From Gemmata palustris (lineage in GTDB: Bacteria; Planctomycetota; Planctomycetia; Gemmatales; Gemmataceae): a stretch of 64,000 bases of DNA. The translations under genes and the position numbers were made by a program. Below the pieces are notes generated by a model, which did not search any database, was not told the origin of the DNA, and saw nothing but the letters and a program-made list of their open reading frames with translations. Location: NCBI RefSeq assembly GCF_017939745.1, contig NZ_JAGKQQ010000001.1:868001-932000 (forward strand), written 5' to 3'. Positions 3,028 to 41,713 of the stretch are shown here, piece after piece; position 1 is the first letter of the stretch; every line of letters begins with the position of its first letter.

Positions 3028-3219
3028 AGAAGAGGGTTTCCGAGCCACTTCCAGCCACATCGGGACATTGCCCGCCGTATCGCGTTATTTACTGCGATTT
3101 ATAGCGTTTCGTAATGGTTCCCCTCTCGATTCACTCCGTCGGACCTCGTCACGCCGAGACACGTCGAGCATAATTCGGTGACAAACGGAGTGACAAACAA
3201 AAACGGAGGGCGGCACACC

Positions 3220-4554
3220 ATGGCGACGCTGAAAAAGGTGGTCACTACGCATTGGGAGGACCGAACCGGAACGCGGGTGAAGCCCGGCACGCCCGGGGCC
3301 AAGAAGGTGCGGGTGGAGTCTGCGAAGTGGTACGTCGTCTACAAACACGAGGGGAAGCTGAACCGCGTGCCCGCGTACACCGACAAGGCCGCTTCTCAGA
3401 AGAAGCTGGCCGACATCGTGGCCGCCCTGGAGCGCGGGGACGCCAAGCTGACCGACCCGTTCAAGATCCACCTCGACCGGCCGCTCAGGGAGCACATCGG
3501 CGACTACCTCGAAGACGTCCGCCACGGTGGCACCTCCACCCAGTACCACGGCGCGGTGGCCGCCCGCCTTGCTCGCACCTTCGACGGCATCGGGGCGAAG
3601 ACCCTCCGCGACGTGACGGCGGACAAGCTCAAGGCGTTCTTCCGGACGATGACCGACGCCCGCGTGAAGGAGGGGAGCGACCCGGTCCCCGTCAGCGTGA
3701 CGACCAAGAGCGACCACCGGGCGGCGGTGTACACGTTCTTCCAGTGGCTCCGAAAGGGCCAGCGGCACCCCGAGAACGTCGTCGAGCGCGTCCCCCGTGC
3801 CGAGCCCCCAAAGGGTGAGCCGGTAGCCGCGCGCAAGCGGCGGGCACTCAAGACGGCCGACCTGCGGACCCTGATCCGCACGGCTGGCTCGTACCCGGTC
3901 GAATCGAGGAAGCTGAACCGCGGCGGCCGACCGAAGAGCGACGGCTCCCCACGTGCGGCGAGCACCACCAAGATGAAACCGGAAACAGTCGCCAAACTGG
4001 AGGAGCAGGGACGCGAGCGGCGGATGATGTACCTTCTGGCCACGTTCACCGGGTTGAGGCGGGGCGAGCTGTCGCGGGTGCAGGTGAAAGAGGTGAAGCT
4101 GAAGAAGGGGGTGATCGACCTGCCGGGGCTCAAGACGAAGAACGGCCGTCGGGCCGTCATCCCACTCGTGAAGAGATTGGTCACCGAGTTGAAGGCGTGG
4201 GTTGCCGAAAAGGACAGCGAAGCGCCGCTGATCGCCATTCCGGACCGGCACAACCTCCGACGGCCGCACCTGGCCCACCTCAAGATGGCGAACATCCCGT
4301 ACCAAACGGACAAAGGCCATGCCGACTGGCACAGCCTCCGCAAGACGGTGAACACGTTCCTCCGCCGGCGAGAAGTCCCGCTCCGACAGCGGCAGCGGTT
4401 CCTGCGGCACTCGGCGGCCGATCTCGCCACACAGCGATACGACGACGAACGCACCGGCGACATGGCCGATGTGGTCCGGGAGCTGAGCCGCCTGTGGCGA
4501 TTCGTGGTCGGCGGCGAGGCAGAGAGCAAGGACGCCCCATCCGATGCCGTGTGA
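3220..4554 (+). CDS. int: Tyrosine recombinase (phage-type integrase)
   Basis: This 444-aa site-specific recombinase would catalyse integration and excision of the island at the adjacent tRNA-Val. A core-binding domain occupies about residues 70-190 and the catalytic domain about 205-430. Catalytic residues are visible: Arg in TGLRRGEL (about 280), Lys in KTKNGRR, His and Arg in WHSLRKT (about 370), His in RFLRHSA, and the Tyr nucleophile in QRYDDE (about 406). ATG 3220 is preferred over the upstream GTG 3178 because GGAGGG lies 8-13 nt before it. The gene starts about 190 bp from the att site, the usual position for such integrases. It appears intact. Confidence 0.93.
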   Translation: MATLKKVVTTHWEDRTGTRVKPGTPGAKKVRVESAKWYVVYKHEGKLNRVPAYTDKAASQKKLADIVAALERGDAKLTDPFKIHLDRPLREHIGDYLEDVRHGGTSTQYHGAVAARLARTFDGIGAKTLRDVTADKLKAFFRTMTDARVKEGSDPVPVSVTTKSDHRAAVYTFFQWLRKGQRHPENVVERVPRAEPPKGEPVAARKRRALKTADLRTLIRTAGSYPVESRKLNRGGRPKSDGSPRAASTTKMKPETVAKLEEQGRERRMMYLLATFTGLRRGELSRVQVKEVKLKKGVIDLPGLKTKNGRRAVIPLVKRLVTELKAWVAEKDSEAPLIAIPDRHNLRRPHLAHLKMANIPYQTDKGHADWHSLRKTVNTFLRRREVPLRQRQRFLRHSAADLATQRYDDERTGDMADVVRELSRLWRFVVGGEAESKDAPSDAV

Positions 4555-7298: not shown

Positions 7299-7450
7299 AA
7301 CGTGGCTCCCTTGTCGTCTGCACAACGTGCAGCCGGTTGCTTGGTTAAATTTTGGTGGGTCTTGGAACGTTCTGGGCGAGTTGCGGCGAGTAGCTGCGAG
7401 GCTTCACCGATAGAGTGCCCCGGGCGGCAGAGGAATTGCGTTGCAGTTCG

Positions 7451-7966
7451 TTAGCTCGGCCCCAACCCTCGCGCGGTCATAGTGCTGCGGAGCATCTCGA
7501 GGGCTTGCTGGAGGCGTCGACAGACGGTGCTTGGCCGCACCCCACACGCACAGGCGGCTTCAATTCCAGTCTTCTCTTCGAGGTAGCAGATGACCACTAC
7601 CACACGGAGATCTTCCGGGAGGGCTGCAACGGCTTCCCTTACGGCCCGGGCACAGTCTCGCTGCTCCACCTCTCTGGCCGAGTCGGCTTCGGCTAGCTCG
7701 ACCCCGCAGAGATCGCACGTGTCGCACGCACGCTTCTTTCGAGCGATTTTGAATGCCCTCCGGCGAGCGGCGGTGACCTTCCATGCGAGCGTGTTGTTCG
7801 GTGGCTCTCCCTTGTGCATCAGAAGCGCAACCTCGGCATCTTGAGCGGCGTCTTCCTTGTCCTCGACAGGGAGGGTAATTCGCCTCAGTGAGCGCAAGAG
7901 CCCAGGGAGCGGGTCAGGCTCGTCCACCGGAAAACTCCGTAAGGGTACGCAGGTGCCTAGCGGCAT
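7451..7966 (-). CDS. ECF-like RNA polymerase sigma factor
   Basis: A 171-aa protein. A sigma region 2-like helix lies early (EDKEDAAQDAEVALLMHKG, about residues 35-53), with a basic linker at 67-80. The C-terminal half holds region 4: LPEDLRVVVVICYLEEKTG and the helix-turn-helix AACACGVRPSTVCRRLQQAL (about residues 117-155). A cluster CDTCDLC at about 80-86 may bind metal and is unusual. It would direct transcription of a small regulon. The SprT-like gene downstream is a candidate, but no promoter motif was established. Confidence 0.75.
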   Translation of the reverse strand: MPLGTCVPLRSFPVDEPDPLPGLLRSLRRITLPVEDKEDAAQDAEVALLMHKGEPPNNTLAWKVTAARRRAFKIARKKRACDTCDLCGVELAEADSAREVEQRDCARAVREAVAALPEDLRVVVVICYLEEKTGIEAACACGVRPSTVCRRLQQALEMLRSTMTARGLGPS

Positions 7967-10186: not shown

Positions 10187-10783
10187 ATGGCACGTCGCAA
10201 GAAAGCAAAGGAACCCACCGCCGCTGAAACGCCCACCGAGCAACCGCAACCCGTCGCCACCGAACCGGCACCCGTCGAGTCGCCTCGGATCAGCATCCAA
10301 CCCGAAAACATCGTTCACGCCCCAGCGACGGAGCCTGCCGCAGCCGAGCAATCCCGTTCAGTTGAAGCCGAGCGGCATGCAGCTCACGAAAACGGCCAAT
10401 CGCCGCACCACGAGCATGCGCACCATTCCCGCCACCCACAGCACCGGGAACCCAGCAAGAGCCACGCGGAAGCAGTGGGCAAGCGCCAGCCGCGCTACAA
10501 CGAGCAGGGCAAAACCGATTACGTGGTCGGTGTCCGAGTGTTCGAGCACCACGACCCCTACCTGTCCATCATCAAATTCGACGAGAAGCCAAGCGACGCC
10601 GTGCGCGGGAAGATGCGCGAGGCGGGGTTCACCTTCCGAAGCGAAAACCGCGAGTGGACGCGCCCGATCAACTTTGAAACCCGCGTTCAGGATCGCGTGC
10701 ATGCCGACCGCGTGTTCGAGGAAGTGTGCCAAATGACCCGCAAAGAACGCGGAATTACGCACGATTTTGGCGGCGCGTCGTAA
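10187..10783 (+). CDS. Polyvalent-type accessory protein, small partner of the methylase-helicase
   Basis: The protein is 198 aa from ATG 10187 (RBS GAGAAAGGA). The frame is open upstream, but that part is out of character. Residues 1-105 are low complexity, rich in Ala, Pro, Glu and His with a basic start (MARRKKAK). Residues about 108-195 form a compact domain with KPSDAVRGKMREAGFTF and ENREWTRP. This resembles the small domains with a 'new residue appears, old residue worn' W-x-R pattern found in polyvalent proteins that phages and conjugative elements inject with DNA. It is followed by a terminator and then the 1732-aa gene. Function is not established. Confidence 0.6.
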   Translation: MARRKKAKEPTAAETPTEQPQPVATEPAPVESPRISIQPENIVHAPATEPAAAEQSRSVEAERHAAHENGQSPHHEHAHHSRHPQHREPSKSHAEAVGKRQPRYNEQGKTDYVVGVRVFEHHDPYLSIIKFDEKPSDAVRGKMREAGFTFRSENREWTRPINFETRVQDRVHADRVFEEVCQMTRKERGITHDFGGAS

Positions 10784-10806
10784 CCCGGGCATTACCGTAC
10801 TGAACA

Positions 10807-10839
10807 GACCGTGATCGCACCCGTGGTCGCGGTCTTTTT
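10807..10839 (+). terminator. Intrinsic terminator
   Basis: The stem 10807-10816 pairs with 10825-10834 (10 bp with two G-U pairs, 8-nt loop), followed by TTTTT. It ends the transcript of the 198-aa gene and overlaps the first possible GTG (10811) of the next frame, which argues for the later ATG 10904. Confidence 0.75.
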
Positions 10840-10903
10840 CTTGCGCCTGCCGCCAATCCGCCTTACAAACTGTGGCCACAGCAACCCCACGTCCCGTCTC
10901 GAG

Positions 10904-13900
10904 ATGCCCCCGAAGCCCAAGAAGAAGTCCGGCCCATCCCTGTTCGACTACCTCGACGACGAACCGCCAGCCACGTTCGCCGAACGTGTCGGGGAGAAAC
11001 CGCCAGCAGCGACGTTCGCCGAGCGTGTGCGGCCACAGCCGCCGGCAGTCCCCGCGCAGAGCATCCCGCCCGTCGATCCCGTTCCTGAAGTAGTGCGAGG
11101 CCCTCCGCTTTCGAGCGGGGAAAAGGGCAAGGCCCGCGACATCATCACGGCGATCAAGACTCTTCACCAGGTCGAGAGGCGCGGCACACCCGCTACACCC
11201 GAAGAACGCGAGGCACTTGCCAGATACCCAGGCGTGGGGCCAGTCGCCCTCTCCATCTTCCCGAATCCCGCGAACGGCCAGTACAAGGACGATTCGTGGC
11301 GCTCTCTCGGCGAGGAATTGAAAGCACTCCTCACGCCGGACGAGTACGCCTCTGCTCGCCGGACCACATTTAACGCGTTTTACACCTCACCCGCCGTCGT
11401 CGACGCGATGCACGCCGCGCTGACGCAGCTCGGAGTGCCGGATGGTGGCCTGGTGTTGGAACCGGGCTGCGGGCCTGGCACGTTCCTGCGGCCCGGCAAG
11501 CGGTACATCGGGGTCGAACTCGACAGCATCTCCGCGCGGATCGCGAAGGCGCTGCACCCCAGCCAGGACATCCGCAACGAGGACTTTCAGCAGACCAAGC
11601 TGCCCGAACTCGACGCCGTCATCGGGAACGTCCCGTTTGCCGACCTGAAGCTCGACCACCACGGACAGAAGTTCGCGCTCCACGATTACTTCTTCGCCAA
11701 GTCAGTTGATGCCCTGAAGCCTGGCGGCGTACTGGCGCTGGTCACGTCGCACTACACCCTGGACAAGCAGAACGCCTCGATCCGAGAGTACCTGGGCGAT
11801 AAGGCCGACTTCCTCGGGGCGATCCGGCTGCCGTCGGATGCGTTCAAGCGCGAGGGCACGGCGGTCGTTACCGACATCGTGTTCCTGCGGAAGCGGGCAC
11901 CGGGCGAATCGGCGCACCACGCCGACCCGCAGTGGCTGAAGACCGAGCCCACCGAGATCGACGGTCGCGCGCTACCGATTAACCACTACTTCAAGACGCA
12001 TCCCGAGATGGTTCTGGGCACGTACTCGGGAAAGGACTCGCTCTACGGCGAGGGGTACAGCGTCCTGTCGCGTGGCGATCTTGCGGAGCAGTTGAAGGCT
12101 GCGGTGGGAAGACTGCCCCGTAAGCTTCAAGTATCAGGCCAAACTCTTCAAGTAAGCGGCGTAACTCATCAAGTAGCCCCTTCTTTTGTCCCTCCCTCGC
12201 CCGAACGCCACATCACCGAGGGCAGCTTTTTCGTCCACGAGGGGCGCATCCATCAGATGGTCGATGGCACCGCCGCGCCCGTCGTGTATGGGGGCGGGGA
12301 GCTGTGGGCCAACGGCGCGCTGGTCGGTCGTCGGATGGGCTCGCTGATCGAACTCCGCGATAACGCTCGCAGGGTGCTTCAGTCACAGAACGAGGGCTGG
12401 CCGGAATCGGCCCGCGACGACGCCCGCCGGAAACTGAACGCCGCCTACGACATCTTCAAGTCCGCCTACGGCCCGATCAACAAGACCACTATCTCGGATA
12501 CCGCGGACGGCACCTCGAACCGCCGGATGCCGAACCTGGTGAAGTTCCGCGAAGACCCGGACGCCATGCTGGTGATGGCCTTGGAGGAATACGACGAACA
12601 GACGGGCGAGGCGAAGAAGTCCCCGATCCTGCTCAAGGACGTGGTGGGCAAGACGCCGCCGGTCACGCACGTCGCGACGGCAGAAGAAGGGTTGCTCGTT
12701 TCGCTCGACCGCACCGGTGGCGTCGACCTGCTCCTGATCGCGAAGCTTTATGGCAAGCCCGAGGAGAAAGTCGTCGCCGAACTCGGCGATCTGATTTACC
12801 TCGACCCCGAATCGAAGCGGTGGGAGACAGCCGACGCGTACCTGTCGGGAAACGTTCGCGCGAAGCTCTCGGCTGCCGAGCGGGCCGGAGCCGCTCGGAA
12901 CGTTGATGCCCTGAAGACTGTCCAGCCCGAGGACGTGCTGCCGGGTGACATCGACGCCAACCTCGGTGCGCCGTGGGTGCCGGTGAGTGACGTCCAGAAG
13001 TTCGCCTCGGAACTCTTCCACGTCGCGCCGTCCTCGATCAGTATCGCCCACATGGCCAAGGACGCGGTGTGGAGCGTGGAGGGAGATTACACGGCCGAGC
13101 GGTCCGTAGCCGTCACTTCCGACTACGGCACGTCACGCGCGAGCGGGTTGTGGCTGTTTGAACTCGCGTTGAACATGAAGACGCCCGTGATTTACGACCC
13201 GGTTCCGGGCGATCCCGACAAACGAATGGTTAACCAGGAAGAGACGCTGCGAGCGAAGGAGAAGCAGAAGCAGATCAAGGAGCAGTTCCGCTCGTGGGTG
13301 TTCGCTGATCCCGACCGTACCGAGCGGCTGGTGCGGACCTACAACGACGCCTTCAACAACCTGCGCCCTCGCCAGTTCGACGGGTCACACCTCGAATTTC
13401 CAGGGATGTCCGATGGGGTCAAGTTGCGACCTCACCAGATCGACGCCATCTGGCGCGGGATGTCCGGCGGCAACACGCTGCTCGCACACACGGTTGGTGC
13501 AGGCAAAACCATGGTCCAGGCCGCGACGGCGATGAAGCTGCGGCAGGCGGGGCTGGCCAAGAAGCCGCTTATCTGTGTGCCCAATCACATGCTTGAGCAG
13601 TTCGGCCGCGAATTCCTCCAACTCTATCCGAACGCGAAGATCCTCATCGCCTCGAAGGAGGACTTTACCAAGGAGCGGCGCAAGGTACTCACCGCGAAGA
13701 TCGCTTCGGGCGAATGGGACGCGATCATTGTGACCCACTCCAGCTTCGAGCGAATGGGCATGTCGCGGGATTACCAGGAGCGGTTCCTGCGAGAGCAGAT
13801 CGCCGAGTACGACGAGCTTCTGGCCGACCGGGCGGCGGAAAAGTTCTCGAAGTCCAACCGCAACATGATCAAGACGATCGAGAAGCAGAAAGCGGCGCGC

Positions 13901-16102
13901 GAGGCCAAACTGAAAGACCTCCTCGCCCGGGACAAGAAGGACGACGGGCTGGTGTTCGACGAACTCGGCGTCGACCACATCATGATCGACGAAGCGCATT
14001 ACTTCAAAAACATGGAGGTGGCGACCAAGATGGACCGCGTCGCGGGCATCCAGACCGGCGGCTCCGAGCGGGCGTTCGACCTCTACATGAAGTGCCGCTA
14101 CCTGCACGACCAGCAACCCGGCCACGGCGTTACTTTTGCGACCGGCACCCCGATCAGCAACTCGCTGGTCGAACTCTACACGATGCAACGGTTCCTCGAC
14201 CCTATCGGACTGAAATCGCGCGGCATCGAGCACTTCGACGCCTGGGCCTCGACTTTCGGCGAGGTCGTTGAGGCGATGGAAATCTCCCCGGACGGCAAGT
14301 CCCTGAAGCCCCGCGCCCGGTTCTCGAGGTTCGTGAACCTGCCCGAACTCCAGCAGATGTTCCGCGCGTTCTCCGACGTGCAGACCGCCGAGATGCTGAA
14401 CCTGCCCCGGCCGAAGCTGGAAGGCGGGAAGCCCCATGTCGTCGCGTGCTCGATGTCCGATGAGCAGGTTGAATTGCAGCAGAAGCTGGTCGAGCGGTAT
14501 GAGCGCATTCGCAACGGCGGGGTCGATCCCCGCGAGGACAACGCGCTCGCCATCACGACCGACGGGCGGAAGCTGGCGCTGGACGCGCGCATGCTTACCG
14601 CCGGTGGCAGGGAGTTCGAGGGCTCGAAGGTCAACCGGATGGTGGAGAACGTTGTCGGCATCTGGCGCAAGACCGCCGTGACCAAGGGCACGCAGATGGT
14701 CTTCTGCGACATGGGCGTGAACCCTACCTCGTGGGGGTACTGCCCCTACGACGAGATCGTGGAGAAGCTCTCCGCCCACGGCATCCCGCGCGACCAAATC
14801 GCCGTGATGGGTGACGCCGATTCCGATGCCAAAAAGCAGGCGCTGTTCGAGAAGGTCCGCAACGGCGCGGTGCGGGTGCTGATCGGCTCGACGTCGAAGA
14901 TGGGCACGGGCACCAACGTGCAGAAACGTCTCGCGGCGATGCACCATCTCGATGCACCGTGGAAACCGGCCGAGGTAGAACAGCGTGACGGTCGCATCCT
15001 CCGCCAGGGGAACCAGAACGAGGAGGTGGCGATCTACCGCTACGTCACCGAGGGCAGCTTCGACGCGTACATGTGGCAGGCTCTGGAGACGAAGGCGAAA
15101 TTTATCGGGCAGATCATGACGGGTGAATCCGGCCTCCGGAAGGCCGAGGACGTGGGTGGGCAGGAACTGAGTTACGCTGAGGTGAAGGCCATCGCATCCG
15201 GGAACCCCGCCGTGCTCACACTCGCGGAAGCGGACGCCGAATTGCAGCGGCTCGGGGTACTGAAGCGAAACCACGCCGACGAGCAGTACCTCGCGCGGAA
15301 GAACCTCCGCGAGCTGCCCCAGACCATCGACCGGACAGAAAAGCGACTTGCGGCACTGGAGACGGACGCGAAAACGCTCGCGGGCGGTGACGCCGGGGTT
15401 CTGATCGTGGGAGGCCGGAGCGTGACGCCCCAAGACCCTGCTCTGGCGATCGCCCTGGACCGCATCCCCGAGACAGTGAGCTACACCCGCCGGTTTCCCA
15501 TCGGAAAGTACCGCGGTCTCACCTTCGGAATCGAGAGCCATCCCGTCGGGGGATCGGACGTGTATCTCGAAGGGCAAGCCTCGCAGACGGGGCTGTTGTC
15601 GTCGCACGGCCCCCGCGCCGTGTTGAACGCGCTCGGGCGGGTGGCGGATTCCTACGGAGAACTGATCGACCGGGCCAAGCAGGACCGCGACCTCGCACAG
15701 CGGCAGGTTGCGGATTACCAGGCACGGATTGGGCGCGTGTTCACGCATGCGGCCTACATGGAGGAACTCACGGGCCTGCGCGACCGGCTGAAGGTGTCAC
15801 TCTCGGGCACCCCGGCGGAGGGGGAATCCACGTCGGCGGAGCTGGCGGAGCGGATCAAATCGCTGAAAGCGGGCCACCTCGTGGAAGCGGTGCCTGCCCG
15901 CGTCCGCGAGAAGCCCAAAGCAGAACGTCGGCGCGTCGAGCGGATCATACCGGCGGCTGAAGAGGCGAAGCCCGTCGAGGAGCCGAAGCCGGAAGAGACG
16001 AAGCCTGCGGACGATAAGCCTGAGGGTGGTCCGGGAACGCATGGAACCGTTCCGGCGTTCGCAGTCCGGGTGAAGAAGCTCCAGCAGCGGTCGCTGTTTT
16101 AG
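10904..16102 (+). CDS. DarB-like N6-adenine methylase/SNF2-type helicase giant protein
   Basis: A 1732-aa intact polypeptide. Domains in order: a Lys/Pro-rich tail with two copies of PATFAERV (residues about 22-45); an adenine methyltransferase with motif I EPGCGPGTF (about 185) and motif IV IGNVPF (about 240), an NPPF-like variant; a linker with a short AT-rich repeat insert (LQVSG twice, about 410); a superfamily-2 helicase with Walker A HTVGAGKT (about 862), DEAH (about 1028), TGTPISNS, and motif VI QRDGRILRQGNQ (about 1360); a long coiled C-terminus; and a charged Pro/Glu/Lys tail. This layout is that of phage P1 DarB and related polyvalent proteins on phages and conjugative elements, which protect incoming DNA from restriction. 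ATG 10904 is chosen because the GTG at 10811 lies in a terminator. Confidence 0.85.
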   Translation: MPPKPKKKSGPSLFDYLDDEPPATFAERVGEKPPAATFAERVRPQPPAVPAQSIPPVDPVPEVVRGPPLSSGEKGKARDIITAIKTLHQVERRGTPATPEEREALARYPGVGPVALSIFPNPANGQYKDDSWRSLGEELKALLTPDEYASARRTTFNAFYTSPAVVDAMHAALTQLGVPDGGLVLEPGCGPGTFLRPGKRYIGVELDSISARIAKALHPSQDIRNEDFQQTKLPELDAVIGNVPFADLKLDHHGQKFALHDYFFAKSVDALKPGGVLALVTSHYTLDKQNASIREYLGDKADFLGAIRLPSDAFKREGTAVVTDIVFLRKRAPGESAHHADPQWLKTEPTEIDGRALPINHYFKTHPEMVLGTYSGKDSLYGEGYSVLSRGDLAEQLKAAVGRLPRKLQVSGQTLQVSGVTHQVAPSFVPPSPERHITEGSFFVHEGRIHQMVDGTAAPVVYGGGELWANGALVGRRMGSLIELRDNARRVLQSQNEGWPESARDDARRKLNAAYDIFKSAYGPINKTTISDTADGTSNRRMPNLVKFREDPDAMLVMALEEYDEQTGEAKKSPILLKDVVGKTPPVTHVATAEEGLLVSLDRTGGVDLLLIAKLYGKPEEKVVAELGDLIYLDPESKRWETADAYLSGNVRAKLSAAERAGAARNVDALKTVQPEDVLPGDIDANLGAPWVPVSDVQKFASELFHVAPSSISIAHMAKDAVWSVEGDYTAERSVAVTSDYGTSRASGLWLFELALNMKTPVIYDPVPGDPDKRMVNQEETLRAKEKQKQIKEQFRSWVFADPDRTERLVRTYNDAFNNLRPRQFDGSHLEFPGMSDGVKLRPHQIDAIWRGMSGGNTLLAHTVGAGKTMVQAATAMKLRQAGLAKKPLICVPNHMLEQFGREFLQLYPNAKILIASKEDFTKERRKVLTAKIASGEWDAIIVTHSSFERMGMSRDYQERFLREQIAEYDELLADRAAEKFSKSNRNMIKTIEKQKAAREAKLKDLLARDKKDDGLVFDELGVDHIMIDEAHYFKNMEVATKMDRVAGIQTGGSERAFDLYMKCRYLHDQQPGHGVTFATGTPISNSLVELYTMQRFLDPIGLKSRGIEHFDAWASTFGEVVEAMEISPDGKSLKPRARFSRFVNLPELQQMFRAFSDVQTAEMLNLPRPKLEGGKPHVVACSMSDEQVELQQKLVERYERIRNGGVDPREDNALAITTDGRKLALDARMLTAGGREFEGSKVNRMVENVVGIWRKTAVTKGTQMVFCDMGVNPTSWGYCPYDEIVEKLSAHGIPRDQIAVMGDADSDAKKQALFEKVRNGAVRVLIGSTSKMGTGTNVQKRLAAMHHLDAPWKPAEVEQRDGRILRQGNQNEEVAIYRYVTEGSFDAYMWQALETKAKFIGQIMTGESGLRKAEDVGGQELSYAEVKAIASGNPAVLTLAEADAELQRLGVLKRNHADEQYLARKNLRELPQTIDRTEKRLAALETDAKTLAGGDAGVLIVGGRSVTPQDPALAIALDRIPETVSYTRRFPIGKYRGLTFGIESHPVGGSDVYLEGQASQTGLLSSHGPRAVLNALGRVADSYGELIDRAKQDRDLAQRQVADYQARIGRVFTHAAYMEELTGLRDRLKVSLSGTPAEGESTSAELAERIKSLKAGHLVEAVPARVREKPKAERRRVERIIPAAEEAKPVEEPKPEETKPADDKPEGGPGTHGTVPAFAVRVKKLQQRSLF

Positions 16103-17975: not shown

Positions 17976-18683
17976 TCAATCAGGCCAGCAAAACTGGCAA
18001 GTAGAACAGGACGTACCCTTCTTCCGACCAGACTCTGTCTCAGTCGGGCAAATCAAGTCGAGCTTGATCCGCTTGTTGTCCTGATACCGCAATGGGTGGT
18101 TCAGGAAGATCAGATCCGCAGCCTCGGGCTCTTCGTCAGAATCCATCAGCCACGCGACCCGCACCCCTTCCGGGACGGTCAGCGGGTATCCGGTCTCCTC
18201 ATCCGCTGAGAACCACACGGAGAGGTTCGGGAGCTTGGCCAGTTCTGCCAACACCTCCAGAATGCCGGGAATTCGCCAGCTCCGGCTGTAAAGCCAGAAC
18301 TTCGTGTGCGGGCAGTTGGAAACGATTTCCAGCCACTTCGCGCGTATCCAGGGCTATACATGTCACCACTTACGTGGGGACGCACAGCCAGACAGCCTTT
18401 GCGATGGATCTCTGCCGTCATGCGACTGGCGAAGTCATCGCGCTTGCTTTGTTCGTAGCACCACTCCAGGCGTTCGATCACCTGGGGAACACGAACCGGC
18501 CCCGGCGACAGTAGCAAAGCGATTCGCACCGCTTGCTCCGTCCGGGGCAGGTGACACCGGCGGCACGTCGAAGTGAAACACCGACATACCGAGTTTTTCG
18601 TTACCAGCGACCAAGAGCCCTCGTTTGGTTTCCACGGGGAAAGTCCACACGGGTAATCCCGTAGGCGTGTGAAAACACTTCAC
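17976..18683 (-). pseudogene. GP88-family phage protein, frameshifted
   Basis: Minus strand. Three frames join to one protein: LLVAGNEKLGMSVFHFDVPP (from about 18620), then RVPQVIERLEWCYEQSKRDD and CLAVRPHVSGDMYSPGYA, then LPNLSVWFSADEETGYPLTV, EGVRVAWLMDSDEE and a Cys-rich end LICPTE with CSTCQFCW. Order and motifs match the 'gene product 88' family of actinophage and other temperate phage proteins, which usually contain several cysteines including this terminal CxxCxxC. At least two single-base changes break it (about 18520 and 18250). Function of the family is not known to me. Confidence 0.7.
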
Positions 18684-22321: not shown

Positions 22322-22889
22322 ATGAGCACCAACCTGCTGTTTATAGAACCATGACCCGCCGTACCCGCATCAACACTGTCGCCGAAGCCGACGCACGCCC
22401 TCTCAACTCGCTCCCTGGCTTTCTGCTGCAGGGCAACCTCGGAAGCAGGTGAACGATTTGCTGGCCATTGCAGCCGTGTACCGGGGAGATCGACCGCCTG
22501 CAGGCGCTGGCGGGAGAACAGAAGAAGCCAGGGTTCGTGGACCTAATCGAGAAGAAACGAAATAACCAAAGCCTCACGAGGCGGAAAAGAGGATGAATGA
22601 AGTCTTTGCTATCACTATCGGCGGCGTTTGCGCTGTCCCGTTTCCTGCACGAACTGCCTAGCGGGCCACCTTCACTTCGAGAGCATAAGCCGCTCCCCGG
22701 TCAAAGAAGAAGACTGGAGCGCGCAAGCAGCAGCGGGCATCGCAGAAACAACGGAACCGGGCAAGAACGAATTAAACCAAGGAAGGACAGTTCATGGTTA
22801 TGCTGATAGAAGTGGGCAAGACCTACCGCAATCGCGAAGGCGAGAAGGTGAGCATTATAGTGGACCCCGAAAACTGGACCGCCGGTTAA
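22322..22889 (+). pseudogene. Remains of further phage-type small genes
   Basis: A chain of tiny frames joined by ATGA overlaps (starts at 22322, 22351, 22593). The best preserved parts are KQVNDLLAIAAVY and EIDRLQALAGEQKKPGFVDL with IEKKRNNQSLTRRKRG (to 22596), and, after GGAAGG, MVMLIEVGKTYRNREGEKVS from ATG 22794. The latter is cut after about 22 codons by the IS3-like element at 22861 and runs into its end as VDPENWTAG, stop at 22889. Several single-base losses occur. Individual functions are unknown. Confidence 0.5.
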
Positions 22890-25464: not shown

Positions 25465-25820
25465 CTACAGCCAACTTGTTTGCCAGCATCGCGTCGGAGA
25501 GCGAAGCTGAGTCGGCCGTCGAACACTCGCCCAGCAGGCGGCCGTACTTCTCACGCTTCCGCACGACACATCTGACCTCTTTGCCCTTGATAAGCATCTG
25601 CATGGCGTCTCTCGCTTCGTAGAACCCGGCCTCGCCTTTTCGGGGTATCGATGCGAGCGAGGCGAACACGCTCGTCGCCGCAGCGGAGAGTATCGCCGTC
25701 GATGGCGGCGCAAAGCGCAAAGACGTAAAAGACATGGGCCACTGAAGTTATACCTTCGACACAAAGGGTTTCTAAAATTCTTCTGCCCGACTTGTCACAG
25801 ACATAGCCCTGCGGTGTCAA
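25465..25820 (-). pseudogene. Thermonuclease-like (SNase) protein, truncated and frameshifted
   Basis: Minus strand from about 25765: FALCAAIDGDTLRCGDERVR and LARIDTP (the SNase signature with IDGDTL and an Arg/Asp pair), then after a one-base shift AGFYEARDAMQMLIKGKEVR, KREKYGRLLGECSTADSASL and DAMLANKLAV, cut by the end of the IS3 element at 25464. The RKREKYGRLLG stretch corresponds to the conserved Arg-x-Tyr-Gly-Arg region of staphylococcal nuclease homologues. The original protein would be a small secreted or periplasmic nuclease. Confidence 0.7.
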
Positions 25821-30964: not shown

Positions 30965-33632
30965 TCAACTGCCCGAGTAAGCCTCCGCCAAGCCTCTCAG
31001 GGTCATGTTGTCCGCAACCACGTCGTGAGGTATCAGCAGGTACTTCCACACCTTTCCGCGGTGCTTCTTCGAGTAGTTTGACGCGTTCAAGCACCAGTTC
31101 GCACCGGCATCCCGCTTCGCAACAACATCCGCATCGGCCATCGCAGAAGCGGCCTTCGTCTCGATCATGTAAATGCAATCATCGGCTTCGGCGACGAAGT
31201 CAGGCTGGTATTCCTGCTGATCGTGTGAAATCCGGTAGAAGATTTGAAACTGCCCTTTCGCCGGCCGGAACCACCGCAGGAGTCCCGCTCCAGAATGACC
31301 GCCATCTTGCGCTCGGTATCCGATTGGAACTTCTGAAGCCGGTACAGGCACTTCGTAAAGCCTGCGTAGACCAACTGCCCGATCTTGCCTTTGTCGGCGG
31401 GCGGCTGGCGGTAGTCGAGAACGGTGTCGGTTGCCGAAGCGGTGAAGGCACTGTCCTTTAGCTCTGTAAAGCCCTTGCTGACGACAATCTCGTACCCGGT
31501 CGCCTCTTCCCAATAGTTCTGCTGCATTTGCGAATGGATCAGCTCCGCAATCTGCTTCTGGTAGACGCGCAGGACTTTCCGCACATCCATCTCATCAACG
31601 AGATAGCCGCGCAGGTGGTTAACCGTCAGGGTGGCGAGGTCGTAGAGCATGTCGGCGTGGTCGTCATAGGACACGTCGTCGAAGTCCACAAGCCCGCCGA
31701 CGACGTAATCTTCCAGCCGCTGTTCTTCGATACCGCCCCGGCCGAGGTTGATCACCTCCCGCTGGCCGCTCCGAAGGTTCTGTGCCCACAGTTCATCGGA
31801 TGGCACCGGGTAGCGGATGCTGGTCACGTTGAGCTTGAACTGCTTGTAGCCGCTGCGTACCTCGCCGTTGGGCACGACGATAATACGGGGAATGTCAATC
31901 GTACCAAGAACGATCTGCTCGGTTGTCTTCGCTACAACCTCGGCAATTGCATCCGTGGTGCTAAACATCTCGGCTTGCTTCGGGCCGATTCGACGGCGGA
32001 CTTCCTCAACAACCTTAGCCTGCACGTCCTTGCTCTGAAGGTGCGAGACGGTCGGAACAGTGCCCGGCTTGCCCTCCAGAGTCCGGATTATCTGTAGGCG
32101 ATTTGGGCAACCTTGCGCTCCGATTCCGTAGCAAACAGCGGGGCGGGTGGCTGTTCCGTTGGACCGGCCGCTTCCGCCGCCTTGTCAGGGAAGAGCAGCT
32201 CGGACACGGTGGACTTTGAAATGACGGTGACGAGTTTCTGTATGCCCGTCGATGGGTCGAGAACGATATGCTGTAGCTGGATTGGCGAGTCCGGACGTTT
32301 GGCGTCGTCAACAATCTCCTGGAACTTGTCGTGCGCGACGATGTTCAGCCGGTCCACCGCGTTCACGCCCGTCCGCTTCCCGTAGGGAAGCCGCAGCCCC
32401 GCCCGATGCTCTGCTCGATTAGGATGCGCGCGTTCGCCGCACGCAACGGGACGATGGTGTAGAGGTTGGTTACGTCCCAGCCTTCCTTGAGCATGTTGAC
32501 GTGTATAACGATTTCTGTCGGCTCCTCGGTGCTCTCCACCCCAGGAGTCGCTCGATCATCTCGTCCTCTTCCTTGCCTGTCTTGCTCGAATCGACCTGAA
32601 TCACCCGCTGCTTGTAGCGGCCCTCGAAGAAGCCGTCCCCTTGAATGAGTTCGAGAAGCTGCTTCGAGTGCGTGGTGTCGCGGGCGATTACCAACACGAA
32701 CGGCTTGACCACGGGCTGGCCAGTCTGAACGGCGTAAGTTTCCAGTTCGACCTTCACGCTCTCATGGAGGCGAACCCCGTCCTCTAGCTTGATCTGCTCG
32801 ATGTTCTCCGTCGTCTTCCCGGCGGGGGTGAAGTCCTTGCGGGTGACGACCGCCGGCTCCTTCACGAATCCGTCCTCCATCGCCTTTGCGAGGGAGTAGT
32901 CGAAAATGACATTTTGAACGGCACCGCCGCGCGGGCCTTCGACGAACGGCGTCGCGGTAAGCTCCAGGCCGAGGATCGGCCTCAGATCGTTGATCGCCTT
33001 CACACCGGGCGCGCGGTACCGGTGCGACTCGTCCATTAAAGGACGAGGTCGCTCAGGCCGGCGAGGTAGTCGAAGTAGGGTTCGCCGAGGTACTCCACCA
33101 TCTTCTTGATTCGCGCCTGCTTGCCACCGCGAACCTCACTGTTGATCTTCGAGATATTGAAGATATTGACCTTGCAGTCGTCGGGGTGTCGAAAAGCGAC
33201 GTGGCCTGCGATTGGTAGTTGTCCCCAGTAATGATGGACGGCGGATCGATTGCGAACTCCGCAATGCCCCTGAATACATACTTCTTGGTGTTAGGCGTGA
33301 AGTCCGCGACAAGCTTGTTGTAGATGGTCAAATTTGGTGCGAGGACAAGAAAATTCTTGATCCCATGCGCCAGGTACAGGTAGCCGATGAAGGCTCCCAT
33401 CAGCCGCGTTTTTCCGACCCCCGTTGCGAGCGCGAAGCAGATCGATGGGAACTCCCGCTCGAAATCGGTGACGCTGGAGTATTATTCGACTGAATGGCGG
33501 CGAGGGACGCCGCCCGATCCGCCCCTTCGAGGGGTACGCGATCTCGCAAATGCGGTCCAGTATTTCCAAGGATGTGCGCTGCGGCGGGCGAAGGCTGAGC
33601 CGGCCCGCGAGGCTGTTGACCTGCCGGTTCAT
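30965..33632 (-). pseudogene. Type III restriction enzyme Res subunit (helicase-endonuclease), multiply frameshifted
   Basis: ATG 33632 overlaps the mod stop as ATGA. Joined frames give an SF2 translocase: ATGVGKTRLMGAFIGYLYLA (Walker A), LMDESHRYRA (DEAD box), GLELTATPF, then VLVIARDTTHSKQLLELIQG. A long middle part (DFDDVSYDDHADMLYDLATL, IVVPNGEVRSGYKQF) follows, and then a C-terminal PD-(D/E)xK nuclease YQPDFVAEADDCIYMIETKA. At least five frame changes (about 33480, 33045, 32540, 32400, 32060, 31260) occur. It would translocate on DNA and cut beside unmodified asymmetric sites together with Mod. Confidence 0.8.
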
Positions 33633-35161
33633 GTGCCTTCCCCTTCGACATCGAACAGTGTCACCTGCTTCGGCTTCTTTGCCGCTTTCGGCAGGTTCTC
33701 AACTTTCAGCGAGTAGTCATCGTGACCCCACTCGCACTTGTCTAGCACGGCCTTCGGGATCTTCTTGACCGTCAGCCTCGGCCAGCGATCGTTCTTGCCG
33801 CGGAAAGCGGTGCAGAGGATCAGTAGGGTGCGGTCTTCGCCCACGTCATCCGACAGTTGCTGAAGCTGCTCTGCGCGCCAAGCGACTGGGTGGTGACGTA
33901 GATGAAGTCGCGCCCGTACTTTGCCCTTGCTGCCAGTACACCGAATCACTCGGGGAGTACGTGAACCCTTCAAGCTTGCAGCAGGGCCTCAGACAGCATT
34001 GCCGCGTTATACTCCTTGCTAATGACCCACTGGCTCCACTTGTCCTTCATGAGTAGCGAGGGGCGAGTCGGTAATAGCGGAAACCGCCCCCGCCTTTCCA
34101 ACCAGTGAGATCTGTAACGCCTCCCGAGTCTTGGCCATCGACAACTTTGGTGAGGCGGGGAATGATGTGCGTATGGCAATGCTCCCAGCTCGACCATGAT
34201 CCACCGCCGCCCCATTTTGTGTGCAACCGCCCCCGTCGTGCCCGAGCCCGCGAATGAATCGAGTACTATCTCGCCCGGATTCGAGGCGATGTGAATGATG
34301 CGCTCGATGAGTGCCTCGGGCTTTGGCGTTTGAATGCCGCCTTTTCGCCGAATAGAAGCTCCATTTCCTGCTGGCGTGCTGGTTCAGTGCGACATTGTCC
34401 CAAATCGTCGGCGTCGTCATCCCCTGCTTCGCCTCCGACAGGAACAACTTACGCATCGGCGTCGTTGACTTGCCGTTGACCCCCAGTAAAGCCTCCGATC
34501 ATCCTGAAGGCGCTGCATCTCTTCTTTGTTGTGCCGCCAGCACGTACCTTTCCTTGGGAACACATCCTGCTTGGTGTAGGGGTTGGTAATCGCGAACATC
34601 AGCGATTCGACGTGCCGCCCGCCTTTTCCGTTCGCGGTCGTATCAATCTTCCTAAACGGGCCGCGTTCGTCCGGACCGTCCGGCTCATCGAACACCCGAT
34701 ACTCGGCGTCCGCCTTTTCGGTTCTGGGCATCAGGTTGAAGCTCTCTTCTGCGTCAGTCTTCTTGCTGCTGCCCGACCGGTGCTTCCCAAATACGAGGAT
34801 GTGCTCATGCACAGAGCCTATCTTCCGGTCGTTCGGCGCGCCGTCGCGCTTTTTCCATGTGATGTCGGAAATGAAGCATTCCCTCCCAAAGATTTCATCG
34901 CAAACCACTTTGAGGTAATGGGCTTCATTGTCATCGACCGAAATCCAGATGCTTCCATCTTTGCAGAGCATCTTTTCAGCAGCTCCAGCCGATCTCGCAT
35001 TAGTCCGAGCCACAGCGAATGCTCGATGCCGTCGTCGTACTGCTCAAAAGCAGACCCCGTGTTGTAGGGAGGGTCGATGTATATGCACTTCACCTTTCCC
35101 GTGAACTCCGCTTCCAGCCTTCAGAGCAAGCAGGTTGTCGCCGAAGATAAGGCGATTATCG

Positions 35162-36596: not shown

Positions 36597-37479
36597 GTGA
36601 CTGTCCCATAAGGGGTTGTCACGCGGCTTTGTGATATTGGAATTCGGGGTCGGCATATTTGGGTTCGAGTCGGTTGAGCATGAGGTGGATCATGGCCAGT
36701 TTGATGAACGCCTCCGCTGACATCACGCTTTCCTCCCGGTCCTTGGTGAGCCGCCGGCACGTGCCCAGCCACGCGAACGTGCGCTCCACGGTCCACCGGA
36801 TCGGCAGCTTCACCCACCCCTTCGACCCCTCCGGGGGCGCACGATGACCAGATCCCACCGGGCGTTGTCCTCGACCCACGCGTAGAGGGCGAAGTTGTGG
36901 TACTTGCTGTCCGCGTACATCCGCACCACCTTGCCGACCGGCTGTCCCTCCAAGCGGGGAACAGTTCCTGCGCGGCTTGGGCATCGTCCACGCTCGCGGC
37001 GGTCACCAGCACGGCCAGCAGCAACCCCAAGGAATCCACGACGATGTGGCGCTTCCGCCCGTCGACGTTCTTGGCGTTGTCCCGGCCCCGCTGCTCGCCG
37101 CCGGAGGTCGTGTCCACCGACTGGCTATCGACGCTCGCCGTGGTGCGCGCGCACGGCTTCTCCTGGGTGCGGACCTTCTTGCGGAGCAGGTCGTGTATGG
37201 TGTCGAGGGTACCGTTGTGACGCCACTCGTCGAAGTACCGCCAGACCGTGGACTTGGGCGGGAAGTCCTTGGGCAAGTAGCGCCACTGGCACCCGGTGCG
37301 CAAGATGTAGAACACGGCATCGACGACATCCCGCAGGTCGGTCGCGGGGCCGACCGCCCGGATAGACCGGGATGTGAGGCTCGATTAACCTCCACTGCTC
37401 GTCGCTTACATCGCTCGGGTAGGATTGGGTTCTCATGAACCATTTTACCCACCCCAACTGCCCCTTATGGGACAGTCAC
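36597..37479 (-). mobile_element. IS5-family (IS427-group-like) insertion sequence, 883 bp
   Basis: Ends GTGACTGTCCCATAAGGGG and the complement of CCCCTTATGGGACAGTCAC; duplicated TCA at 36594-36596 and 37480-37482. A TNA target of 3 bp fits the IS427 group. It is the presumed autonomous partner of the three 88-bp MITEs. It interrupts the AIPR gene. Confidence 0.88.
36619..37436 (-). pseudogene. IS5/IS427 transposase, frameshifted
   Basis: From ATG 37436: MRTQSYPSDVSDEQWRLIEP, then after one shift VFYILRTGCQWRYLPKDFPP, STVWRYFDEWRHNGTLDTIH, TTASVDSQSVDTTSGGEQRG (catalytic Asp), KNVDGRKRHIVVDSLGLLLA and VTAASVDDAQAAQELF; after two more shifts GWVKLPIRWTVERTFAWLGT (Glu region), CRRLTKDREESVMSAEAFIK and a complete end. 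Frame changes lie at about 37345, 36960 and 36840. Confidence 0.8.
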
Positions 37480-38851
37480 TCAGGGCGGAACAACCTCTGG
37501 CATAGCGTCTGTTCTGGCTGCTCTTTCGGGTAAACCTGATCGGGAGACCAGACAGCTTTCCGATTACTCAGCAGCATCGCGCATAGTTCGCAATCGCTAT
37601 CACCTTCCAAGCACACCAAGGCCGTTGCGGCGTCTTCGAGGTTAAAGTTGGTTGCGTCGGACTCGGGAATGTCGTCGCCCTCTTTGTAGTGGTAGCTGAT
37701 GCCGTCCATCCCAAGCTGGAGCGCGATGCGCTCGTGCTGTGTGTCGAGGGAAACGAAATCCCGCGCGCCAATCTGGTTCTGGAAGTTCGTCGATTCGGTG
37801 ATCCGCCGCGCGAAAGTTGTCTCGTCCTCGCACCTTTCGAGGGAGATGATCTTCAGGAACACGTAGCCTTCGCTCGTGGCGTCCGCGGCGTGGATCGTAC
37901 CGAGCGTTTGCGCGCCGTTCACGATGGAGAAACCCTTCGCCGTGACACGTTTTTTCTCGTGATTTGCCAGATCAGTGCGCGCAACATCGAGCTTCTGGCA
38001 GTACGCGGTCAAGCCGTTGTTCAGGTAAAAGAAATTCGCGGGTTCGCCTTGAAGCGTCTCCCGAATTCGCTCGTTAACCTCGGTCAGCCCCTTGTACCGC
38101 CGGATATTGGCGGCGACAAGCTTCGCGCCGTGAGTCGCGTACAGAGCGGCAATATCGGCGATGCGAACCTGCCCGTACACCGTCTGGAACGGTTCAGTAA
38201 CCATCCCCGGCTTCAGCACTTCAAGTTCGACTTTATCCACACCCGCAGCTTCGTCTGCGCCAGTGATCCACCCGTGAACGCTTGAAAGGCCGTAGCTCGC
38301 GAAACGGAAATACTCTTCGCCGTGATTCACCCGCGCTTCGAGTGCTTCGAACAGGTGCAGGCGTGCCTCGGATACGGTGTTGATGCCTGAGTAGACAAGG
38401 ATCGCCCGGACACGAAGGCTTGCGTCGTCGAAGTATTGCTTGACCCTCGGCAGGATCGCGACCCACGCCGCGTTCGTCTCGAATGCCGTCCAAATGCCGC
38501 GCAACAGGTTATCGACCCCATCGCGGAACTTGCTGACATCGCCCAGTTCGGGTTCTCCCCGTCCGGATTCGATGAACTTTGACTGCACCACATAGAGCGT
38601 GTTCGAGGTCGATGTGTGATACACCGCGTCAATGCCGGCATCGCCACCGCCATCGACTACCGATGCCGCAGCTTCGTCCAGACCGCAGCCGCTCAGTCGG
38701 TGCACGGCAAACGCGGCAAGCGCTCGGGAGAGGAAGTTGTTCTCTTTTTCGCGATCAGTCTTACCGCTTTTCGCGGGAGGTACGCGCCCCTCGAAATCCC
38801 TGTGTAAGCGAGGGGGAACGTGGTTGATCTCGTAAGGCTTTTCGACGACGC

Positions 38852-41713
38852 TCATATCAGTCTCCACCGCGCCGAGAATATTGTTCGCTGACTGACGGTT
38901 TGCTCCAGCTTGCCTTCCACCTTCCTGATGAGCGCGTCACGTCGAGCTTCAACCTCGTCCTGCGCGGCGAACAGCGACTTGCGCTTTGCATTCCTTAGCG
39001 ATTCGAGCGTTCTGACCTACCTCTGCCCGGCCAGCTTCTCCTCAAGCGTCAGAGCTGCCGAAGCAGCCCTCTTGGCTTCCTTCAGTTGCCTGTCCAGATC
39101 CCTGATTTCCCGTTCCAGTCCTACCTTCAGGTCGTCAGCCCACCCATCAAGCTTCGAGGCTTCTTCCTCGAACAGCTTGCCGTTCCGCTCGGAAATCGTT
39201 CGTCGGATAGCAGCCTGTTGACGCTCGATTTCGGCGACGAGTCGCTCGTCTGGGGGAAATGCCGACAGGTCATTGACCGCTGAAGCCGCCATGAGGAAAA
39301 ACTTGCAAGCAAAATCGGAGGGCAGAATTTTTCCGTTGTCGGTGATCGCGGCGACCATCATGTGGTCTTCACCCTGGTCCATCGATTCGATGCTAAGCCG
39401 CTGAACGAGCAACTCCCCGGACAGGTTTCTGTACGCCTGAAAAGCCGCGACTCGCGGAAATACCCCCGCGTAATCGAATACGATTTCGGCTGGAGGAAGC
39501 ACTTTCTCTCGCGCTTGGTGAAGCAGGCGTTGTGCAAGCGTGTGCCCGATTCGGTACAGATGCGATTCGCCACTTCGCCGAGGGAGTTCGTATCGCCCCA
39601 TCGGCATGTGCAAGTCGGGAAACGGGTTTGCCCGAAGCTCGAAAGCCGTGTCGTCAGTGTTGAACTGCGCATGGCCGTTCAGCTCGTGGCGGGTCATCCG
39701 CATCAGCATCCGCTCGTAGCCGGATTGATAACCGTCGCTCTCGCTCTTGCTGATCCTCAGCTTTTCGTGAACCTCATCGTCGAAATTCTCCAGAAGCTGA
39801 CGGCGGGTTTTTGTCATCGCCTCGTTTATCTGTAAGGTCAACTCCCGCTGGAGGTGGACGAACGACTCGGAAATTTCCTGCGCTGTGCGGCATCCTTGAT
39901 AGATTTCTGCGATCCGTTTCTCGAAATCAACGCCCGACTCGATCGCCCCAAGCACCTCGTCGCTCGCCCCGAAAACGCCCTCAAAGAGCTTGAACTTCTC
40001 GTCCAGCAGCTCGAACACGCGTCGGTCGGCATCATTTTTCAGGTTGATAAAGTTCACGACCACTACGTCGAACTTCTGGCCGTAGCGGTGGCATCGCCCG
40101 ATCCGCTGCTCGATCCGCTGCGGGTTCCACGGCAGGTCGTAGTTCACTACCAGGGAGCAGAATTGGAGGTTGATACCCTCCGCCCCTGCCTCAGTGGCGA
40201 TCATGATTGAGCCAGTGTCGCGGAAGTAGTCCACGAGGGCAGACCGCATGTCGGCCGTGCGTGAGCCGGACACCTTCTCCGTGTTGGCGTGCTTTTTCAC
40301 CCATTCGGCGTAGATCGCCTTCGATCCGATGTCCGTGTTCGAGCCGTTGAAGAGGACAATTCCGTCGCGATAGGGGCTGTTGCCCAGAAGCCGCAGAATG
40401 TAGTCCTGAGTCTTTCGGGACTCCGTGAAGATGATCGCCTTGCGGGCGGCTCCGAGGCGATCCGCCTCTTCGAAGGCCTTGCCGAGCGCGGTCAGCAGCG
40501 CGAAGCCTTTCGCGTTCTGAGTGATGTTCATCGCGAGGTCACGGAATCCTTCGAGGTCGCGAACCTCTTGATCGATCGCAGCCTGGTCACTGTCAGAGAG
40601 CGGGGGCTCGTCGTCTTCCTCCTCCCCCCACTCTTCTGCCGTCTCGTCAAGCCCTTCGTATTCTTCCTCGAACTCCTCTTCGAGGGACGTCACTGGAGCC
40701 TTTGTGACAAGCTTACCTTTGAGTCGGGCAATCAGCGTCTCCAGCGCGCCAGCGATGGCAAACGTGGATGACGCGAGCAGCTTGCGGAGCACCATTGTCA
40801 TCAGGGATCGCTGGCTGGTCGGGAGCGCCTGCAGGTTGTCACGGCGCAGGTACGCGGAAACCTCGTTGTAAAGTAGATCCTCACTGTCCGCAGGCGTGAA
40901 CTCCTCGACCATCGCGTGACGTTTCGTGAACGGAACGTATTCGACCACCTGCCTCCGTAGGCTACGGTGGCAGATCGGCCGGAGCCGAGCCTTGAGCGCC
41001 TCGAATACTTCCTCCTCGCTCAGGTTGGCGAACTGTTCCCGGAAGCTCTTCAGATCTCCGAAAGCGTGCTCGTCGATAAAGCTCACCAGCCCGAACAGCT
41101 CGAGCAGCGAGTTCTGAAGCGGCGTAGCAGTCAGCAGGAGCTTTGGAGCGGCGGCGAGTGCGTTCTTCAGGACGTTGGCGATCACATTCGACGGCTTGTA
41201 GACGTTTCTGAGCCGGTGGGCTTCGTCGATGACCACGAGGTCCCACAGCACGGCGGTAAGGTCGGCGGCCTTTGTCTTCGCGAACTGGTAAGAGCAGATA
41301 ACCACTGCGTCGGCAGGCTCAAACGGAGAGGGCGTGCCGCTCCTGACTGCCGCCTTATACGACCTGGCTTCCAGGATGCGACAGGGCAGGGAGAACTTCT
41401 CCTGCATTTCCTGGTGCCACTGCTTGCGGAGGTTCGACGGGGTGATGACCAGGAGCTTTCGCTTACGCTCTGCCCACTTCTGGGAGATCACCAGCCCGGC
41501 CTCGATCGTCTTCCCGAGCCCGACTTCGTCTGCGAGCATCGCCCCTCGGGAGAGCGGGGAGCGGAACGCGAATAGCGCGGCCTCGACTTGGTGGGGATGG
41601 AGCTTGACCTGAGCATCAACGAGGGCACCGGCGAACTTCTCGATGCTGTCGGAGGGGCATCGTTTAGTCAGTTCGTGGGCGAAGAACGCGCTGTGGAAGT
41701 CAGTCAGCGTCAT
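38852..41713 (-). pseudogene. SNF2/RapA-like helicase with an in-frame TAG
   Basis: ATG 41713 (MTLTDFHSAFFAHELTKRCP) is preferred to GTG 41785 because family members start near LTDxHAxxxAxELT. Motifs: Walker A ADEVGLGKT (61-69), DEAH (163-166), TATPLQNS, and in the second lobe IATEAGAEGINLQFCS and QRIEQRIGRCHRYGQ (about 530-545). An acidic insert EEEFEEEYEGLDETAEEWGE lies between the lobes. After 898 codons TAG (39017-39019) stops the frame, but the same frame continues VRTLESLRNAKRKSLFAAQD and EVEARRDALIRKVEGKLEQT to a TGA (38854-38852) that overlaps the AIPR start. The full product would be 953 aa. A CAG-to-TAG mutation is the simplest explanation. Confidence 0.85.

Follow-up and report, generated by a model that had tools for sequence, protein, structure and literature searches.

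An intact DarB-type methylase-helicase gene and its small partner in a decayed prophage island of Gemmata palustris

Introduction

What brought a very large methylase-helicase gene into the chromosome of Gemmata palustris, and what might its product do now that phage-derived genes around it are in pieces? The question is raised by a stretch of 64,000 nucleotides (NCBI RefSeq assembly GCF_017939745.1, contig NZ_JAGKQQ010000001.1, positions 868,001 to 932,000 of the forward strand), hereafter the window, in which a gene of 1732 codons resembling that for DarB, an anti-restriction enzyme known from phage P1, follows a gene for a protein of 198 residues, hereafter the partner. According to the reading favoured here, to which a probability of about 0.6 is given, DarB and the partner are anti-restriction cargo that has survived the decay of a temperate siphophage, and would protect incoming phage DNA. 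DarB itself belongs to a known kind of protein; the novelty lies in its carrier, a planctomycete phage lineage with conjugation-type genes, to which the enzyme known from P1 is now linked. Furthermore, a prophage that looks complete and a decayed relative of it share one chromosome and offer a setting in which both the action of DarB on entering DNA and relaxase-driven phage movement can be tested.

The methylase-helicase

Translation of positions 10904-16102 of the forward strand yields 1732 residues and a stop codon, with zero internal stops; at the base composition of the window, so many open codons would arise by chance with a probability of about 1e-21. Along the protein, a possibly LPD36-like N-terminus is followed by a gamma-class methylase, a long region without Pfam family and an SNF2 helicase (table 1). 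The motifs EPGCGPGTF (residues 186-194), IGNVPF (240-245), GAGKT (865-869), DEAH (1029-1032) and EQRDGRILRQG (1359-1369) are intact and similar to those of relatives, the comparison being made with the eight commonest variants of each motif. An earlier sequence-only reading of the locus had described an unbroken gene of this length with methyltransferase motifs and a superfamily 2 (SF2) helicase, beside a His/Pro-rich protein of 198 residues; frame and motifs agree with the former description, and the composition of the partner (15 His and 17 Pro) with the latter.

SNF2, ResIII and Helicase_C are matched above the Pfam cut-offs, DEAD and Eco57I below them; among solved chains the methylase region matches M.TaqI (E 4e-4), and the top of 20 PHROG matches is PHROG 10089, ‘DarB-like antirestriction’ (1468 bits, residues 70-1646). 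A gamma-class adenine methylase with a SWI2/SNF2 helicase fused C-terminally, the arrangement by which the DarB type is recognized in the available text of PMC5512222, is what the window protein has, and no nuclease or specificity domain of type I or type III restriction-modification was detected in it by Pfam and NCBIfam scans. P1 DarB, which is phage-encoded, shares the order of a gamma-class methylase with GNVPF and then an SNF2 helicase, with a possible LPD36-like position ahead; in BLASTP the methylase block (29% over 217 residues) and the helicase blocks align in the same order. The DarB-like assignment of the sequence-only reading, which had called for this comparison, is thereby supported. 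Motif IV of the methylase is NVPF in both proteins, whereas the pattern given in the same text is NPP(Y/F); GNVPF is present in 38 of 42 sequences, those of the window and P1 included, and absent from four remote ones. The two proteins differ in that P1 DarB has 2255 residues, its C-terminal part aligning convincingly with nothing in the window protein (BLASTP), and in that the window type has a separate small partner upstream and carriers with genes for a MobF relaxase and a coupling protein as well. A grouping with chromosomal housekeeping helicases, the outcome named beforehand as speaking against a mobile origin, did not emerge, as the other SNF2-type places of the G. palustris genome align over just 84-98 residues at 30-31%.

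The island and its more complete relatives

A second intact DarB gene of G. palustris (C1:2232931-2238096), whose product is 67% identical to the window copy, belongs to a prophage (C1, about 2.21-2.31 Mb) with the gene order integrase, coupling protein, ParB-like protein, partner relative, C5 methylase, TrwC relaxase, SSB, primase-polymerase, terminase, portal, protease, capsid, tail genes, endolysin, a small protein and DarB. Family matches support the terminase, portal, S78 protease, capsid, SSB, lysozyme, C5 methylase and Prim-Pol, as well as TrwC (197 bits) and the coupling protein (PF02534, 240 bits); the integrase is below cut-off, and the tail genes are named from homologues in the locus L065. 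When this prophage is used as query by protein and DNA matching, the partner, DarB, a GP88 remnant, a 177-bp stretch, a split SNase gene and integrase pieces are recovered in the window, with insertion sequences interspersed among the remnants. Because the integrase, SNase and GP88 fragments match the complete-looking prophage, the island is assigned to a decayed prophage; as judged from sequence, the window is the ruin of a siphophage prophage of a relaxase-carrying lineage, in which an intact DarB survives with the partner. The delivery by a phage or conjugative element proposed in the sequence-only reading is narrowed accordingly to a siphophage-lineage prophage encoding a MobF relaxase and a coupling protein. 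No match to the portal, capsid, tail, relaxase and coupling proteins tested is left in the window and the 20 kb upstream. The family match of the integrase falls short of the Pfam cut-off (24.4 versus 27.1 bits); its remnant is probably the right edge of the island. On the left side, an open reading frame (ORF) at 3178-4554 of the forward strand encodes a tyrosine recombinase of 458 residues, which the prophage integrase does not match, its match being the right-hand remnant only.

Two IMG/VR contigs, for which the database states no completeness, extend the picture. The first (G095, 56.7 kb) has the same order as the prophage, with a terminase (73%), portal (70%), capsid (49%), DarB (69%), TrwC (47%), ParB (59%; ParB_N match of 57 bits) and coupling protein (51%), DarB lying beyond tail, endolysin and holin genes. 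The second (G096, 85.6 kb) has a portal (59%) and capsid (54%), both with family matches, DarB (70%), TrwC (58%), ParB (53%) and coupling protein (72%); its DarB lies beyond the tail genes and a weak endolysin match (E 1.6e-4), and no terminase match was obtained in the contig, 5.4 kb of which lie outside the compared DNA. Since this gene order recurs in three records, a chance adjacency of plasmid and prophage is strongly disfavoured; at the level of sequence, phage and relaxase genes are shown to be encoded by one element in three near-complete-looking genomes. Furthermore, DarB comes behind the genes for tail and lysis in three phages, a placement that suggests a late, possibly virion-borne protein, as in P1.

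A further relative, G011, is a decayed prophage of the same kind, with homologous capsid, protease, tail and coupling-protein genes and TrwC in two pieces; its DarB gene, the sister of the window copy, is interrupted by two ORFs, each with a DDE transposase domain.

Near DarB, G095 also encodes a second, different VirD4-type protein (L065:15293-16543, reverse strand; 417 residues, 186 bits to PF02534), relatives of which (41-49% identity) are found in many family genomes, that of G. palustris included (C1:813802-815052).

Distribution, phylogeny and selection

The family was sampled by 95 genomes, some of them fragmented, with up to five DarB candidates scored per genome, so that all DarB counts are lower bounds: there are at least 40 long homologues, and at least five in some genomes. 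The 40 places are long matches, with pieces merged for G011, G018:C273, G094:C1 and G091:C693, and exclude helicase-only matches and the short fragments in G008:C222, G018:C42, G036, G037:C150, G054, G087, G092, G093 and G094:C3. Among the matches listed, the window protein is closest to the G011 copy (90% over residues 206-1509, 78-86% in two end pieces), with which it forms one clade (support 100). DarB homologues are found in 2124 plasmid records, 725 of them predicted to be conjugative, and in 1063 of 72,556 plasmid records 80% or more of the query is covered at a single place; full-length relatives number 47 in a phage collection of 50,697. This distribution matches the carriage of DarB-type proteins by phages and conjugative elements described in the accessible part of PMC5512222. 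Plasmid proteins annotated ‘N-6 DNA methylase / DEAD-box helicase’ (e.g. in NZ_AP018720) are full-length homologues of the window protein, but are at most 41% identical to it among the 40 matches listed, and the partner is unmatched in plasmids.

With three outgroup sets, the ratio of nonsynonymous to synonymous substitution rates (dN/dS) is 0.16, 0.17 and 0.22 on the window branch versus 0.38, 0.29 and 0.63 on that of its broken sister. The former values fit a gene kept working until recently, and set no date for its integration; together with the intact motifs, they make it plausible that the window DarB is still functional.

In two other homologues, in G018:C273 and G094:C1 (L137:7873-14247 and L140:17444-18508), in-frame intein-like inserts interrupt the DEAH box and the Walker A motif, respectively; the splicing model is below cut-off in the first, and LAGLIDADG_3 scores 42 bits in the second.

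Linkage to a relaxase and the question of transfer

The portal of the G. palustris prophage has eight strong places (at least 54%, its own included) in the 95 genomes, five in G094, two in G. palustris and one in G018, a 60-residue fragment at a contig end (G018:C185) being left out; a TrwC gene (PF08751) lies on the same contig in all eight, 11.9-32.7 kb from the portal. Around DarB, TrwC is found within 50 kb of 30 of the 40 homologues, a few short secondary TrwC pieces being omitted (G006:C19, G011, G020, G033, G046:C394, G091:C941), and on large contigs it is near DarB in 7 of 10 cases versus 0.31 expected. Of the ten places lacking it within 50 kb, six have none on the contig and two have it 58 and 65 kb away; the other two, in G051 and the window, lie on large contigs. 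The DarB of the window is orphaned, the nearest relaxase being 1.4 Mb away. Counted for each query only, the prophage TrwC protein is matched in 1 of 50,697 phage records, over 23% of its length, and in at least 5000 plasmid records, and the coupling protein in 22 phage records.

A further element of G. palustris (C1:5844002-5860324), with a second portal gene (56%) and a TrwC gene (350-residue frame) 14 kb away, and with no DarB listed nearby, is another relaxase-phage element.

In the family, TrwC/MobF is frequent (28 of the 95 genomes) and VirB4 nearly absent (one genome): PF03135 matches only G028, and PF19044 matches none above cut-off, ten genomes having weak matches below it. A canonical mating channel is, therefore, not seen in 27 of the 28 TrwC genomes with these two VirB4 models, other channel types not having been sought.

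A tentative proposal, regarded as possible rather than probable, is that the element is a temperate siphophage equipped, in hosts without a recognisable VirB4 channel, with the genes for DNA processing in conjugation (a MobF relaxase, a VirD4-type coupling protein and ParB). It would have two modes of transfer, in virions and as a single strand led by the relaxase, and DarB would be the establishment enzyme guarding both entries. The literature searched, including the available portions of PMC11389934, PMC4260502 and PMC5154133, yielded no description of a siphophage lineage with a MobF relaxase and a coupling protein. ‘Conjugative prophages’ are already in print (PMC4260502, as far as its available text goes): streptococcal phi1207.3 has head and tail genes and a movement that, according to its authors, fits conjugation, but the word ‘relaxase’ is absent from that text and the authors call the transfer mechanism unresolved.

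The partner protein

The partner gene ends 120 bp upstream of DarB. Its relatives occupy 17 places in 12 of the 95 genomes, to which a profile adds L071; 8 of the 17 adjoin DarB (the window, G011, G014, G022, G090, G091 and two in G035), with 97-811 bp between the matched stretches, and the remainder are located elsewhere, as in the G. palustris prophage, where the relative stands beside the ParB-like and coupling-protein genes. An alignment of 16 sequences has eight invariant columns. No family was matched in Pfam, PHROG, NCBIfam or PADLOC at E up to 0.1, and no plasmid record at E up to 1; viral scans with two relatives found nothing, and the best match of the profile to solved structures (E 0.18) is not meaningful.

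A low-confidence single-sequence model (mean predicted local distance difference test score 62) places a beta-beta-alpha-beta-beta-alpha core at residues 113-188. Foldseek found nothing in the PDB under E 0.2 with this model; the single viral match below 0.001 is an uncharacterised phage protein, with a DUF3560 protein at E 0.16. VIA-align returned tied middling rows, among them the T4 MotA DNA-binding domain (Z 5.7, 75-77 residues, root-mean-square deviation 2.8-2.9), a likeness that may reflect a common arrangement only. Two suggested kinships were discarded: one with HARP or DUF3560/DUF5710, as Pfam assigned the partner no family, and the one between its C-terminal domain and the C-terminus of P1 DarB, prompted by a G-A/F-x-W look, for which the hhalign probability was 0.11%, versus 0.05-0.92% in 30 control windows of P1 DarB.

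Proposed function and alternative explanations

In the model of Iyer et al. for the methylase-helicase dyad, the motor moves on duplex DNA and the methylase marks it, and P1 DarB is said to belong to the virion head and to act in cis (both from the accessible text of PMC5512222). By analogy, DarB of the present lineage would be made late and carried with the phage DNA. In the new cell, the SNF2 motor would track along the duplex as it enters, and adenines would be modified by the gamma-class methylase; alternatively, tracking itself would block restriction complexes. In either case the invading DNA would escape cleavage by type I-like enzymes. For the partner, binding to DNA or to DarB and a role in loading are most likely, though this is a guess. 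In relaxase elements without detected phage genes, where DarB is near a relaxase in several loci, the same enzyme would serve DNA arriving by relaxase-driven transfer, and this closeness is compatible with the anti-defence genes described for the leading regions of conjugative elements (PMC11541004, in the text available). HSDR_N, of type I restriction, is found in 52 of the 95 genomes (51 above cut-off), so that the presumed target of DarB is common among the hosts.

Several points weigh against anti-restriction cargo of a siphophage. We know of no planctomycete DarB whose activity has been demonstrated. The G. palustris genome gives no HSDR_N match, so that the window DarB would lack a type I target of this kind in its own host. 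Virion packaging is suggested by a single kind of evidence, gene position, and the low dN/dS of the window branch may mostly predate integration. Phage and non-phage contexts interleave in the DarB tree, where the phage label needs five changes, no fewer than shuffled labels, and the immediate donor of the window copy could, therefore, be a relaxase element without phage genes; the label ‘relaxase only’ in this tree means that the tested phage genes are absent from the DNA compared. The labels take a single phage lineage as their reference for homology, and phage genes unrelated to it would go unnoticed. The GVGP of the window, identified by its position, departs from the GXG(G/A/S) of the available text of PMC5512222, the relatives listed having GFGP or GFGA and P1 GEGG. 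Finally, according to the part of PMC11109961 at hand, what the P1 DarB protein does is itself undefined, Chi and EcoKI sites in the DNA having led the plasmid tests of darB astray.

An origin of the window copy from a relaxase-bearing plasmid, or from an integrated mobilizable element without phage genes, in which DarB would guard conjugated DNA, is unlikely. The closeness of TrwC to most DarB homologues, the TrwC, ParA and RPA replication initiator genes that flank DarB in several relatives without match to the tested phage genes, and the many, often predicted conjugative, plasmid records would agree with it; however, the fragments in the window match prophage genes, integrase included, the sister copy in G011 sits in that kind of prophage, and VirB4 is all but missing from the family sample. 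Domestication, in which the pair was kept after decay of the prophage for host use, such as genome methylation or protection from other elements, would account for an intact DarB beside broken prophage genes and for a dN/dS below that of the broken sister, but seems quite improbable: two intact copies in G. palustris and at least five in other genomes speak of element load rather than of a conserved host gene, the transposase ORFs within the G011 orthologue indicate that it is dispensable there, and the distribution is patchy, with an E = 0 match in at least 6 of 19 genomes of the same genus.

The part in a BREX- or DISARM-like defence that the sequence-only reading had considered, with helicase and methylase acting against phages, is very improbable, and that suggestion is abandoned. 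The window DarB has SNF2-type helicase motifs in common with BrxH and DrmD, weak local matches to BrxHI, DrmD and mad2 models are obtained in PADLOC, and a separate DrmD-like ORF lies 23 kb away; but there is no full-length match, the PADLOC matches span about 70-285 residues at 54 bits or less, far under the DarB family score, and the relatives are located in phages and relaxase elements. The best BrxHI match has 53.7 bits, its best stretch being residues 1299-1417 only, and the NCBIfam DrmD models score 52 and 43 bits versus cut-offs of 610 and 950. A PADLOC scan of ten ORFs of the window found no BrxC, PglX, PglZ, DrmA or DrmB-type partner.

Other features of the window

Table 1. Position of DarB, its partner and the prophage remnants in the window.
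Feature	Position	Strand	Remarks
Sigma-70 region 4 protein, upstream of the DarB pair	7451-7966	-	Same place in G011; 90.6% DNA identity over 7357-7965
Partner, 198 residues	10187-10783	+	Pro/His-rich N-terminus without predicted structure; C-terminal domain of about 80 residues (KFDEKP..V..K..AGF.F....W..P)
DarB-type methylase-helicase, 1732 residues	10904-16102	+	Intact; open frame, domain and motif matches
YPGVGPVAL, place of the LPD36 GXGU motif	11225-11251	+	Motif definition from the available text of PMC5512222
Gamma-class N6-adenine methylase domain, residues about 152-332	11357-11899	+	GNVPF at 11624-11638
SNF2/SF2 helicase core, residues about 839-1420	13418-15163	+	GAGKT 13496-13510, DEAH 13988-13999, motif VI 14978-15010
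GP88-family gene remnant of the prophage lineage	17979-18665	-	39% protein identity
177-bp stretch	22583-22759	not assigned	72% identical to the G. palustris prophage
SNase-type nuclease gene remnant of the prophage	25469-25745	-	Two frames, 71-79%
Prophage integrase remnant, residues 2-179 of 397	42302-42814	+	Four pieces, shifting frames, 53-80%

The description of the island as otherwise decayed holds for the integrase, nuclease and GP88 remnants, which are broken, and for the insertion sequences, but not for two ORFs that are open: a DrmD-like SNF2 protein of 922 residues (39017-41785, reverse strand; 668 bits to one DrmD model) and its AIPR/AbiU-like neighbour of 463 residues (37476-38867, reverse strand), possibly a separate defence pair. 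Fragments, Res-like and Mod-like, of a type III restriction-modification system lie in separate short frames at 31165-35013 of the reverse strand.

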